Shown here piece after piece: positions 17,800-50,288 of a stretch of 64,000 bases of DNA. Position numbers and translations under genes: made by a program. Location: assembly GCF_000513855.1 (NCBI RefSeq), contig NZ_KI911318.1, positions 1,179,327 through 1,243,326 of the forward strand. The letters run 5' to 3'. The stretch's first letter is position 1, and every line of letters starts with the position of its first letter. The DNA comes from Desulfurococcus amylolyticus Z-533. GTDB lineage: Archaea; Thermoproteota; Thermoprotei_A; Sulfolobales; Desulfurococcaceae. The notes below the pieces were generated by a model that was not told the origin of the DNA, searched no databases, and saw only the letters and a list, made by a program, of their open reading frames with translations.

Positions 17800-18123
17800 T
17801 CAACCGAATAGTGCTGAGAAACCTTCTGAGAGGGCTTCCTCACTAAGCTCCTTAGACTCCTCCTTCTTCTCCTCTTCACCCTTCTTCTCTTCACCAGCAG
17901 GCGCAGCCGCTGGGGCCGCTTGAACTGGGGCAGCTGCCACAGGTGCTACAGAAGCCTGTTCAAGGACCTTGGCTATGTCAATGTTTTTAATGGCTGCAAC
18001 CAGAGACTTCACCCTAACTTCATCTACTTCAACACCGGCTGCTTCAAGCACCTTCTTCACATTTTCCTCGCTTATCTCTTTTCCAGCCTTATACAGCAAT
18101 AAAGACGCATATATATACTCCAT
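17800..18123 (-). CDS. rpl12: ribosomal protein P1 (L12-type stalk protein)
   Basis: Stalk protein that binds translation GTPases. 107 residues: N-terminal dimerisation helices ([20 protein letters not shown]), an Ala/Pro hinge and the acidic C-terminal tail ending SEGFSALFG. The last 68 nt, through the stop codon, are identical to the end of the P0 gene. A TATA box at 18161-18172 and GGAGGTG before the ATG show it has its own promoter, consistent with separation from P0 by the repeat element. Confidence 0.97.
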
Positions 18124-18172: not shown

Positions 18173-18305
18173 AGAAAGTAGCTTTTAAAGCTTCATCATG
18201 CCTCCCAGGCAAGAATTTAGAGGCAGCAAACATTCATCCTAACCAACATCCGTTGCCCCTAGAGGTCTGATCGTGGTGTTTTGAGATGGTTTAGTTTGTC
18301 CTCTA

Positions 18306-18590
18306 GAGGGTTCGGGTCTGGTGAATTCCTGTGATTGCCTGTAGATATTTCTGGCTACCTGCTTCATCCCATTATTTCTTATTCCCCTGCTCCGTCCGGC
18401 TTCATTCTTCACAATAGTGGAATACCCCGTATACCCGCCCAGAGAATACCGGGAGAAACTATTCAGGCTCCACGGGAGAAAAGTAAAAGGTAATAGTCAT
18501 CGAGGAAAACTAGTGAAGACACCGAGAAGATAAAACACATCCAAAAATATTTACAAGAATTCAGAAAGGATTTAGAACCCGCAACAGGCT
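18306..18590 (-). repeat. duplicated intergenic element, copy 1
   Basis: Nearly the same sequence occurs at 50013-50288 in the same orientation. Positions 18306-18508 are identical base for base over 203 nt; the remaining part toward P0 differs by small indels and substitutions. The element touches the P0 stop codon. On the minus strand it contains a TATA-like box (18541-18558, AAATATTTTTGG) about 25-35 nt ahead of the identical block, so that block may be transcribed. A 57-codon GTG frame (18412 to 18239, starting VKNEAGRSRGIRNNGMKQ) crosses its left edge. Nature unknown: ncRNA gene, mobile element or relic. Confidence 0.9.
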
Positions 18591-19588
18591 CAACCGAATA
18601 GTGCTGAGAAACCTTCTGAGAGGGCTTCCTCACTAAGCTCCTTAGACTCCTCCTTCTCCTCTTCACCCTTCTCCTTCTTCTCGCCTTCCTGTTTAACTGG
18701 TGCTGGAGCCTGTTTAACCTCTATACCCAGCTCTGGAGCATACCTTGCTACCTCAACTGCTAAAGCGTTGGCTTTGGCAACAGCCGATAAGAATACCATT
18801 TCAGCCGTCTCAGGTGTTATAAAGCCTGTTTCCACAGCTAGTGATAAGGCGTGCCTGTGAGCCCTTGATATAACTAGTGGTAGTACTTCTGGCTCCGGTA
18901 ATGCTACTTCAACAGCTATCTTTAAGGCGTCGAGGTGAGCCGCCATAATGTTGTTTCTATACTCGTCTAGATTTAGTATGAGTTTATCGCCTGGTATAAC
19001 AATACCCTCATAAGCTATCTTAGGTCTAAGCCGTATCTCTTTTAATGCCAGCCCCAGTTTCTGGAGCAGGCTAGCTAGATCACCAGAGACAACATCACCT
19101 GGTTTAGCCACTACTGTATCCTTAGCTACATAGACAACATTTCCCTGGACCTTGGTTGGTATCTTGAGCCTTCCGAATACACTTAGCATGGGGCCCGGAG
19201 GTATACCAGTGTTACCCTCAGGTATGATTATCTCCCTATCTGTTTTCTCACCGGGCTTAAAGTATGATTTAGTTACATGAGCGTCCATCAGCATTGCAAG
19301 CTCGAACGCATTCATATTGGTGAATACAACCAGTATTTGACCAGTGAGATACTCTTTAAACGGCTCCGGGTTCAAGCCAGCCTTTTTTAAAGCGATCTCC
19401 AGCAGTCTCGGCTTGACCACCCTCAACTCCGCTTTACCATACAGCTTCTTCCTCAGCATTTGAATATGGTTGGCTGGAATACCGGTTATATCCGCTATAG
19501 CGAAAGCTTTACTGGTCTTGATCAGGTTAACGAGTTCCTCTACTACCTTAATCTTCCACTCAGGTATCTTCCTAGCTGTAAGAGACAT
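18590..19588 (-). CDS. rpl10: ribosomal protein P0 (L10)
   Basis: Stalk base protein that binds 23S rRNA and carries P1 dimers. 332 residues: rRNA-binding L10 domain (KTSKAFAIADITGIP, LRKKLYGKAELRVVKPRLLE), the archaeal insertion domain (GNTGIPPGPMLSVFGRLKIP), helices that bind P1, and an acidic tail ending SEGFSALFG. The ATG at 19588 follows GGTGA, which overlaps the L1 stop. Last gene of nusG-L11-L1-P0 before the repeat element. Confidence 0.97.
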   Translation of the reverse strand: MSLTARKIPEWKIKVVEELVNLIKTSKAFAIADITGIPANHIQMLRKKLYGKAELRVVKPRLLEIALKKAGLNPEPFKEYLTGQILVVFTNMNAFELAMLMDAHVTKSYFKPGEKTDREIIIPEGNTGIPPGPMLSVFGRLKIPTKVQGNVVYVAKDTVVAKPGDVVSGDLASLLQKLGLALKEIRLRPKIAYEGIVIPGDKLILNLDEYRNNIMAAHLDALKIAVEVALPEPEVLPLVISRAHRHALSLAVETGFITPETAEMVFLSAVAKANALAVEVARYAPELGIEVKQAPAPVKQEGEKKEKGEEEKEESKELSEEALSEGFSALFG

Positions 19589-19593
19589 ATTAA

Positions 19594-20241
19594 TCACCTG
19601 TACACTTCTACCGGCATACCCATTGTAGTCTTAAAAACAAGCTTGGCAATGTTACCAGCACCTGATGGAAGCCTCTGCTCTATCACTGATAAAACAGCCA
19701 GTGCGTTTTCAGCGAGATCCACCGGACTCATGTCTTCTGCACCTATCGGAACCATTATCTGCGGTTGATCCTTAACCCTTGCCACAACGGTATTCATGTA
19801 TCTCTTTATGAGGGCTGATATATTAGCGGAAGCAGGTACCGGGATAGGTGCCTTACCCCTGGGACCCAGGGCCGGACCCAGAGTACGCCCTGTTAAAGCC
19901 ATCAAATCCGTTCTAACCAAGACCCAGTCACATTGACCAGCTATTTTCTTCGCCTGTTTCTTGCTTAAGCCCTGGAGATCCTGACTCGTTAACACTATTT
20001 TAGCACCTGCCTCCCTTGCTTTAACCGCTAGCTCTTCATCCCCTATCACACATACGCTTAACTCTTTACCTCTGCCCTTAGGTAGCGTTATAAACTCCCT
20101 TATTTTCCCAGCCTGCCCCTTCACATCGATATCTCTTAGCACTACTATCATTTCAACACTCTGCTTAAACCTCCTACCTTTCCCAAGGGCTAGCGCCTTC
20201 TCTATGGCGTTAACCAGTGATTCACGAGTATACACAGGCAT
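19594..20241 (-). CDS. rpl1: ribosomal protein L1
   Basis: Large-subunit L1-stalk protein. 215 residues with the L1 signature blocks KGRGKELSVCVIGDEELA and GPRGKAPIPVPA. Start codon shares a base with the L11 stop region, showing translational coupling. In archaea L1 can repress its own operon by binding a leader that mimics rRNA; no such leader was identified here. Confidence 0.97.
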   Translation of the reverse strand: MPVYTRESLVNAIEKALALGKGRRFKQSVEMIVVLRDIDVKGQAGKIREFITLPKGRGKELSVCVIGDEELAVKAREAGAKIVLTSQDLQGLSKKQAKKIAGQCDWVLVRTDLMALTGRTLGPALGPRGKAPIPVPASANISALIKRYMNTVVARVKDQPQIMVPIGAEDMSPVDLAENALAVLSVIEQRLPSGAGNIAKLVFKTTMGMPVEVYR

Positions 20242-31997: not shown

Positions 31998-32110
31998 AAA
32001 TACATCCTTTATCAATACCAGTGGTGGTGAGACCTCTATTACCAAGATATCTTTTAGAAGAGCACCCCCACTAACAGTGATTCTGAGTACTTCTGACCTC
32101 CTCCCCCACC
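31998..32110. other. spacer between the sRNA candidate and TnpB relic 2
   Basis: Nothing recognised except the conserved IS right-end segment acctcctccccc at its right side, which joins relic 2. Confidence 0.3.
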
Positions 32111-32287
32111 CTAAAGGGCGAGGCTTTCGGTTGTAATCCCGTTAACGGGGTTGACCCTTGGTGCTGGCTTAATAGCTTCACCTGTGCTTCATGGAGCCCA
32201 GTCGAGAAGGATGCTACGCTCCTCCAATCTGGGGATCAAAGGGCATAAGGCTATAAGCCTCAATCCAGCGTACTTGATACTGACAAG
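32111..32287 (-). mobile_element. TnpB (IS200/IS605-type) C-terminal relic 2 with right end
   Basis: The minus strand reads LIPRLEERSILLDWAP, a stop, then GEAIKPAPRVNPVNGITTES and LAL before TAG at 32111, i.e. a frame-damaged TnpB tail. It is followed by the IS end CTCGCCCTTTAGGGTGGGGGAG with its CCCTTTAGGG half-palindrome. Relic 3 at 41408 repeats the TTESLAL-stop and the same end. In intact elements this region also encodes the omega RNA. Confidence 0.65.
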
Positions 32288-41407: not shown

Positions 41408-41450
<43 letters not shown>

Positions 41451-48486: not shown

Positions 48487-49926
48487 CTACTCTCCCACAA
48501 GGCGCCTTAGCAACGGGTATGCCTCGAGAGTTCTCTCGTAAGCTATTAACGCGTAGTACTGCTGCAGGATACCTATAGCCAGCAGTATCCCGGTGCCAGT
48601 ACCATAGGCTCCTAATGCATCCGCTAGCACAGCTATCGCTGCAACAATAAGGCTTGAAAGCACTGTCAAGGGATAAATGTACTTGGCTAGTATTTTCTCA
48701 AGAATCTTCGGGTTGTTTCTTAACCCTGGAACCTCGAATCCACTACTAATTAATTGTTCAGCCTGTGCAGCCGGGTTTAATCCAGCGACCTCGACCCACA
48801 TCAACCCGAATAGGACTGCCAGTATGAAGACCAGTAAACTATACACTATTAGATGAGCCGGATCGGATAGAGCACTATATAAGCCATTAGGCGATGCGAG
48901 GTAGTATGCTAATCCACCGACAAGCCTACCTGAGGTATCGTATCTAGCTAATAGGTCAACAAAGCTCGGGGGCACCACTGACGCAAGGTAAACCCTGAAC
49001 AATGTTGCGAAGACAAGTATGTTAGCGTAAAGTATACCTACAAATAACACGGGTATATTGGTTACATAGAGGAACTGGAGCGGTATCTTGGTCTTAATGC
49101 TCTGCAACCTCGGTGATGTAACGGGTATTTCGACCTTCATATTGCTCAAGTATACAAGGATAAACATTATAACTATAGTAGCTATGAGTCCAACAAGGTC
49201 TCTACCGCCGGGCCTGAACAATACATTACCTAAGCCACCACCACTGCTTATCACCTGGATCATGTATGGTATGAAGCCTATTGGCTGCCCCTGATAAGTC
49301 ACAGTGCTGAAGATATTCCAGAATATAGTTGTAGCAACACCAGCCAGTATGAACAGCGAGACACCGGAGCCTATACCCCAGCCTTTTTGAATCGTCTCAT
49401 CCAGGACTATTACAAGGTAGGATGCAACGAATAATTGGAGCCACACTATTAAGCGGACATGCCATCCAGCACTACAAGCTGTCACAGGATTACCCAGAGG
49501 CATCCAGTACCTGCATGACAAGACGTACATTCCGGCCTCGAAGGCCGCCAGTATAACGGCTAGGGTTTTCTGGGAAGCAGTGAAAACCTTCCTGTCCTCG
49601 GGATCCGTTAAATCAAGGTTGATCAACTTAGCACCCACAAGGATCTGAATTATCAAGCCTGCCGTTACAATAGGCCCTATACCGAGCTCCATTAACGTAC
49701 CCCTGTTGGACGCGAATATTATCTGTATTAATAATATCTGCTCAGGTCCAGCATAGGATATACCGTAGAGCGGTGTATTAGCCATTATCATGTAGACTAT
49801 TAAAGCCACACCGGTCCAGAACAGCCTCTCATACATCGAGGGCTTGCCCTGCGGCTTAACCGCTGTAGGTAGATAATCCGCTATTTTAGCCATCACCCTG
49901 AGTAAACCCATTCCCCAAACCCCCAT
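48487..49926 (-). CDS. secY: preprotein translocase subunit SecY
   Basis: Central channel protein of the Sec translocon. 479 residues with ten membrane helices; recognisable blocks are TPLYGISYAGPEQIL (plug region follows helix 1), GIGPIVTAGLIIQIL, QKGWGIGSGVSLFILAG and GLNPAAQAEQLISSGFEVPG with RNNPKILEKILAKYI. In other archaea secY directly follows L15; here a repeat lies between, and secY has its own TATA box (49947-49956). ATG at 49926; inner ATGs at 49911 and 49893 are possible. Confidence 0.97.
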   Translation of the reverse strand: MGVWGMGLLRVMAKIADYLPTAVKPQGKPSMYERLFWTGVALIVYMIMANTPLYGISYAGPEQILLIQIIFASNRGTLMELGIGPIVTAGLIIQILVGAKLINLDLTDPEDRKVFTASQKTLAVILAAFEAGMYVLSCRYWMPLGNPVTACSAGWHVRLIVWLQLFVASYLVIVLDETIQKGWGIGSGVSLFILAGVATTIFWNIFSTVTYQGQPIGFIPYMIQVISSGGGLGNVLFRPGGRDLVGLIATIVIMFILVYLSNMKVEIPVTSPRLQSIKTKIPLQFLYVTNIPVLFVGILYANILVFATLFRVYLASVVPPSFVDLLARYDTSGRLVGGLAYYLASPNGLYSALSDPAHLIVYSLLVFILAVLFGLMWVEVAGLNPAAQAEQLISSGFEVPGLRNNPKILEKILAKYIYPLTVLSSLIVAAIAVLADALGAYGTGTGILLAIGILQQYYALIAYERTLEAYPLLRRLVGE

Positions 49927-49956: not shown

Positions 49957-50012
49957 TCTAGACTAGACTCTATAATGAGTCGTGAGGGGCTTATTAAATT
50001 CATTTCATTATG

Positions 50013-50288
50013 GAGGGTTCGGGTCTGGTGAATTCCTGTGATTGCCTGTAGATATTTCTGGCTACCTGCTTCATCCCATTATTTCTTATTCCCCTGCTCC
50101 GTCCGGCTTCATTCTTCACAATAGTGGAATACCCCGTATACCCGCCCAGAGAATACCGGGAGAAACTATTCAGGCTCCACGGGAGAAAAGTAAAAGGTAA
50201 TAGTCATCGAGGAAAGCGAGTGAAGACACCGAGAGAATAAAACATAATCCAAAAATATTTAAAAAGAATTCAGAACCTGCAACAGGCT
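50013..50288 (-). repeat. duplicated intergenic element, copy 2
   Basis: Second copy of the element at 18306-18590, same orientation; 50013-50215 is identical to 18306-18508. It ends 32 nt after the L15 stop. The TATA-like box (50249-50266, CTTTTTAAATATTTTTGG on the minus strand) is conserved better than in copy 1. The GTG frame beginning VKNEAGRSRG (50119) is cut after 39 codons at the left border, so the shared part is not a conserved complete protein. Confidence 0.9.

Follow-up and report, generated by a model that had tools for sequence, protein, structure and literature searches.

Why do two ribosomal protein operons in one archaeal genome carry the same intergenic DNA without a single difference? 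The window analysed here, 64,000 nucleotides of the Desulfurococcus amylolyticus Z-533 genome, holds a 203-nt block at 18306-18508 that recurs at 50013-50215 with 0 mismatches and, as a first-pass annotation had also stated, is oriented alike in both places with respect to its neighbouring genes. One copy separates the genes for ribosomal proteins P0 and P1, the other those for L15 and SecY (Table 1). Both had been placed just after the stop codon of the upstream gene; copy 1 abuts the P0 stop, and copy 2 starts about 32 nt past the L15 stop. Similarity extends past the blocks to 18590 and 50288, at about 83% and with indels, and the match of the second copy in a whole-genome BLAST search (E = 3e-122) is far beyond chance.

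The same annotation took the pair for a two-copy element and proposed a BLASTN search of this and related genomes. That search, over the whole genome (1,307,099 bases, 1.307 Mb, in one contig), returned 24 pieces that merge into about 19 places, all intergenic and ranging from full copies down to short end fragments, so the element is not confined to two copies. None of the copies lies inside an ORF, and BLAST finds the repeat in neither of the two same-genus genomes (G001 and G002). Many copies together with a transposase and target-site duplications had been named as the marks of an ordinary insertion sequence derivative: about 19 copies were found, but the transposase and the duplications were not. 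Seven copies (L001-L006 and L011) have in common one deletion junction, between the right end and the small-ORF relic described below, and L015 and L020 have a second deletion form in common. Because the junctions recur at several loci, the shortened forms appear to have been copied after they arose.

Table 1. Elements, their parts and neighbouring genes in the window; positions are counted from its first nucleotide.
Feature	Position	Strand	Basis
Copy 1, non-autonomous element	18306..18590	- (tnpB-sense strand)	Own-genome BLAST family and alignment of copies
Copy 1 right end (RE), end of the putative omegaRNA 3' part, terminal ...GACCCGAACCC	18306..18420	-	Homologous to RE 3' of intact tnpB in L146, L158, L173 and others
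Copy 1 relic, 3' half of divergent small ORF (YPVYPPREYREKLFRLHGRKVK), then frameshifted	18423..18488	+	tblastn 55-59% to relatives' small ORFs; profile match
Copy 1 left end (LE), where identity to copy 2 falls to 83%	18509..18590	-	Alignments
Copy 2 of the element (L15/SecY gap)	50013..50288	-	BLAST and pairwise comparison
Copy 2 small-ORF relic	50130..50195	+	tblastn; profile match
Gene for ribosomal protein P0, lying upstream of copy 1; stop codon overlaps LE junction	18590..19597	-	ORF list
Ribosomal protein P1 (L12) gene	17800..18123	-	ORF list
Ribosomal protein L15 gene	50321..50788	-	ORF list
SecY gene	48487..49926	-	ORF list
P1 TATA-like box, outside element	~18182-18193	-	Conserved in same-genus genomes
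SecY TATA-like box, outside element	~49991-49999	-	Conserved in same-genus genome G001

Judged by its sequence, the repeat very probably arose, in MITE-like fashion, by internal deletion of a TnpB-only transposon (IS200/IS605 superfamily, IS1341-type) and was then mobilised or copied several times. A longer copy (L007, genome 523689-524292, 604 nt) has the same two ends and, between them, a tnpB relic: a 98-aa open frame in antisense that corresponds to the C-terminal zinc-ribbon part of TnpB (PF07282, E=6e-17). In genomes of the same family, intact tnpB has just upstream of it, and divergent from it, a small ORF whose end is matched by the middle of the repeat; the relic stands in the repeat in the same order and orientation as in those intact elements. 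In Staphylothermus sp. AUK316 (locus L084, the same as L146), the DNA 3' of tnpB reads ...GAGCGGGAGAATAAAGGATGAGGGAATGAAG...CAGACCCGAACCC and then gives way to host DNA; the start of the repeat, as its reverse complement, reads ...GAGCGGGGGAATAAGAAATAAGGGGATGAAG...CAGACCCGAACCC and matches this flank. The flank and small-ORF matches thus mark the start of the repeat as the transposon right end, its middle as a small-ORF relic and its far end as the left end. The right end aligns position by position with eight tnpB-linked right ends. What survives in both window copies is about 115 nt of right end, the small ORF's 3' half and the left end; deletion has removed tnpB and one scaffold hairpin, and the frames are broken. 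In the alignment of copies, the two ends are not inverted repeats beyond GGGTTC. The earlier suggestion of a mobile element was right in kind, since the copies, the relics and the end homology make this a dispersed, non-autonomous TnpB-transposon derivative. Elsewhere in the genome, a further small-ORF relic (GKHIIYPSKEYQEKLSKLHGKKGK) occurs without tnpB nearby (L116, genome 1255611-1255730), and at L040 (genome 571500-576500) a right-end fragment at 574130-574206 lies immediately against another kind of tnpB, truncated at its N-terminus (RuvC motif DVNENNVTLAVF), an arrangement of nested or recombined elements.

The likeness to IS1341-type (IS200/IS605) elements lies in a TnpB with PF07282, in the lack of terminal inverted repeats and target duplication, and in an RNA scaffold that overlaps and extends past the tnpB 3' end and stops exactly at the right end. 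Unlike them, the parent has a conserved divergent ORF of 47-50 aa where tnpA would be, and the window copies have no tnpB at all. Like classical MITEs, the repeat is short, dispersed, non-autonomous, intergenic and derived from a larger element, but it has neither terminal inverted repeats nor target-site duplications. The PATEs and core-deleted IS605 elements of Haloquadratum are also transposase-free, numerous and made by core deletion, and the study that described them likewise found mobility hard to square with a broken tnpA (PMC3119063). The repeat resembles PATEs as a multicopy, transposase-free IS605-type derivative produced by core deletion; however, PATEs are defined by near-terminal palindromes and the repeat keeps protein relics inside. 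On inspection of the copy alignment, any terminal hairpin is weak at most, with an imperfect AGG..TTC / GAA..CCT in the right end and none evident in the left. Work on the TnpB/reRNA of S. islandicus, which showed that a Thermoproteota TnpB uses RNA from the transposon right end, separates IS605 (tnpA plus tnpB) from IS1341 (tnpB-only) groups (PMC11043419); the right-end terminus is UUCAC there, in contrast to GAACCC in the Desulfurococcus repeat.

In related archaea the parent starts with the right end, whose covarying RNA scaffold ends ...CAGACCCGAACCC, and continues through tnpB and a divergent promoter region to the 47-50-aa ORF and the left end. A profile search with the small ORF matched 59 of the 214 genomes of the order (up to 14 matches in one), a figure that includes weak matches and possibly other small proteins. 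Scanning named genomes with the small-ORF alignment gave 57 loci, in Staphylothermus, Ignisphaera, Vulcanisaeta, Zestosphaera, Thermosphaera, Thermogladius and unclassified Desulfurococcales among others; a scan of the named genomes with the tnpB relic as query found nothing. At 48 of the 54 loci with room for it, across Thermoproteota, a tnpB, whether intact, broken or truncated where the contig stops, lies divergent from the small ORF, with a gap of 69-122 nt in 47 of the 48, and no close TnpA was found beside strong small-ORF/tnpB loci. The small ORF has no significant family in Pfam, NCBIfam or PDB sequences, and no relatives were found in plasmid and viral collections; a match to adiponectin (E=5e-4) was rejected as spurious, being a three-fold repeated weak match. 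AlphaFold2 models the monomer with confidence (pLDDT 91) as two strands plus one helix. The fold search returned weak matches, with a designed RIFT dimer the best (prob 0.51, E 0.8) and VapB/MazE antitoxins following at E>4, which hints at an AbrB/RIFT-like predicted fold. An AbrB-like DNA-binding role would be a guess that suits the divergent layout.

TnpB-only elements abound in archaea, which raises the question of how they move when TnpA is missing. Could the small protein be part of the answer? Its divergent position beside tnpB at the 48 loci makes it a concrete candidate partner. A search confined to open-access papers found no description of TnpB with an AbrB or divergent small protein, and on this limited evidence the tnpB and small-ORF module appears undescribed. 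Tentatively, and with somewhat more doubt than confidence, the parent may be an undescribed two-gene type of TnpB element of hyperthermophilic Thermoproteota, with one promoter region, no TnpA and the small protein as dedicated partner (a tnpB autoregulator or a movement factor), spreading and spawning trans-mobilised miniatures without a Y1 transposase. The repeat itself is ordinary in kind, and the conserved parent is the more notable by-product for specialists. Additionally, a 106-aa protein with similarity to the small ORF in its N-terminal part is encoded divergently beside a Y1 TnpA gene (L119, G159:C1, ~706096), hinting at a wider role of this domain beside IS200/IS605 genes.

The right end also carries a conserved RNA fold. 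Covariance folding of homologues, another check that the first-pass annotation had proposed, found covarying hairpins in the parent right ends: aligned with the two longest copies, the eight tnpB-linked right ends give a common fold of two hairpins plus one long-range pairing, with 95% of cells paired. Eight of the 18 pairs are changed on both sides, a number that none of the 500 shuffles attains and that slid registers do not approach. From its position and by analogy with published TnpB systems (PMC11043419, PMC12558985), the right-end RNA is probably an omegaRNA. In the seven short copies the deletion has removed the first hairpin; the second is perfect in L004 and L006 and broken in both window copies. 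Rfam models matched only tRNAs in the window and no RNA family at the repeat. The proposal of an ncRNA gene pair is therefore apt for the parent, whose right end would encode the omegaRNA, but not for the window copies, with one scaffold hairpin deleted and the other broken.

Where did the copies land, and what moved them? Among the 12 copies that retain both ends, no target-site duplication was found at the junctions. The left end lies at most 35 nt from the 3' end of a tnpB-sense gene in 9 of the 17 left-end copies, against a window background of 16% (binomial P = 4e-4); the count becomes 10 if L15 of copy 2, displaced by the simple gene caller, is included. This placement could reflect either target preference or survival bias, and the shortened form may accordingly prefer or merely tolerate sites at gene 3' ends. 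In L004, L005, L007 and L011 a host ORF continues into the element and terminates at a stop codon that lies about 19 nt in. One host ORF (L039:1475-2347) enters the left end, where it acquires the C-terminal residues ACCGF ahead of the element-supplied stop; at three other copies a gene ends at this same position within the element. Across the 17 copies there is no fixed motif outside the conserved AGCC left end, from which a TAM is not separable; one site compared with a sister genome is compatible with AGCC(T) being target-derived.

Y1 TnpA (PF01797) is absent from this genome and from 37 of 40 genomes of the family, and present in the other 3. IS1341-type elements lack tnpA by definition, so its absence limits what can be said of mechanism, not the filing of the repeat as an IS1341-type derivative. 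The shortened form would have been mobilised in trans or copied several times, at least seven loci having one deletion junction; it is this common junction that suggests trans-mobilisation. The source of the activity would now be gone, as the genome has neither an intact cognate tnpB nor Y1 TnpA. Amplification of miniature forms from one deletion implies that movement or copying took place in a genome without detectable Y1 TnpA. An intact 404-aa TnpB at 1304395 was rejected as a candidate parent, with no BLAST match to the repeat near it and a serine recombinase beside it. The surrounding locus (L035, genome 1303000-1307099) looks like an intact IS607-type element, with the 404-aa TnpB beside a 216-aa MerR/serine-recombinase TnpA.

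What do the insertions do to the genes around them? The first-pass annotation held that the downstream gene had acquired a promoter, but the TATA-like boxes of P1 and SecY lie outside the element and occur in same-genus genomes. In G002 the P1-P0 gap is short and free of insert and the P1 box (TTTTAAAGCTTC) is present, in an intergenic sequence whose divergence leaves the exact point of insertion uncertain; G001 retains the SecY box (TTTATTAAATTC) with no insert between L15 and SecY. Because the boxes occur in these insert-free gaps, both promoters are ancestral, and were neither created nor brought by the element. P1 and SecY transcription may thus start at their own older promoters. The TATA-like box reported ahead of the identical block does exist (AAATATTT), but it belongs to the repeat's own left end and is found in most copies.

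These observations bear on three other readings of the repeat. A regulatory RNA element or attenuator common to the P0/P1 and L15/SecY operons, coordinating synthesis of ribosome and translocon, would suit the perfect identity over 203 nt, the same orientation and the translation-related character of both operons, and an earlier proposal of a ribosomal/Sec regulatory relay ran along these lines. However, the family has about 19 copies at unrelated intergenic sites, some 17 of them beyond these two operons, the element is missing at both loci in the same-genus species, the promoters predate the insertions and no Rfam family lies at the repeat. Since the TnpB element also accounts for its content piece by piece, such a regulator is extremely improbable, and the perfect repeat in two ribosomal operons is explained without regulatory function. 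Equally hard to credit is the idea that a small mobile repeat of separate origin, with no relation to TnpB, picked up fragments of tnpB and of the small ORF: the short form was amplified without an evident transposase and no TnpA was found, as this would have it, but the position-by-position correspondence with the right ends of intact tnpB elements, and a small-ORF relic in the order and orientation of those elements, argue against it.

Could the copies instead serve as sources of omegaRNA in trans, their right-end transcripts, with the flank as guide, loading a TnpB encoded elsewhere that targets the empty allele or other sites, for homing or repression? The right ends keep the 3' part of the putative omegaRNA, L004 and L006 have a perfect scaffold hairpin, and read-through in the tnpB sense is likely where the left end follows a co-oriented gene, as in the 9 of 17 copies. 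But the genome lacks an intact cognate TnpB, its TnpB matches other than the IS607-type one at 1304395 being fragments or below the cut-off, and copies 1 and 2 have neither hairpin whole, so this activity is very unlikely, if a little less so than the two preceding readings.

For an internally deleted TnpB-transposon derivative, the perfect identity still calls for a cause. Copies 1 and 2 form a mosaic, with 0 differences over 203 positions and then 83% identity with indels in the left end, where copy 1 is nearest L005 (93%) and copy 2 nearest L003 (87%). This pattern favours gene conversion (or copying plus recombination with other copies) over selection. Of the causes offered earlier, recent duplication and gene conversion were right in kind, and selection explains the mosaic less well. 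The block would then go back to a recent gene conversion event, or to one copy having served as template for the other, rather than to functional selection, as far as two copies in one genome can indicate. The copies at P0/P1 and L15/SecY are probably inert spacers.

In G001 the P1-P0 gap holds a different inserted repeat, parts of which recur at about 9 other places in that genome. The window also has two occurrences (32101-32139 and 41420-41447) of another short repeat, CCCTAAAGGGCGAGGCTTTCGGTTGTAA-like, and since a version of it is found in the G001 gap, a different repeat occupies the same ribosomal gap in that species.
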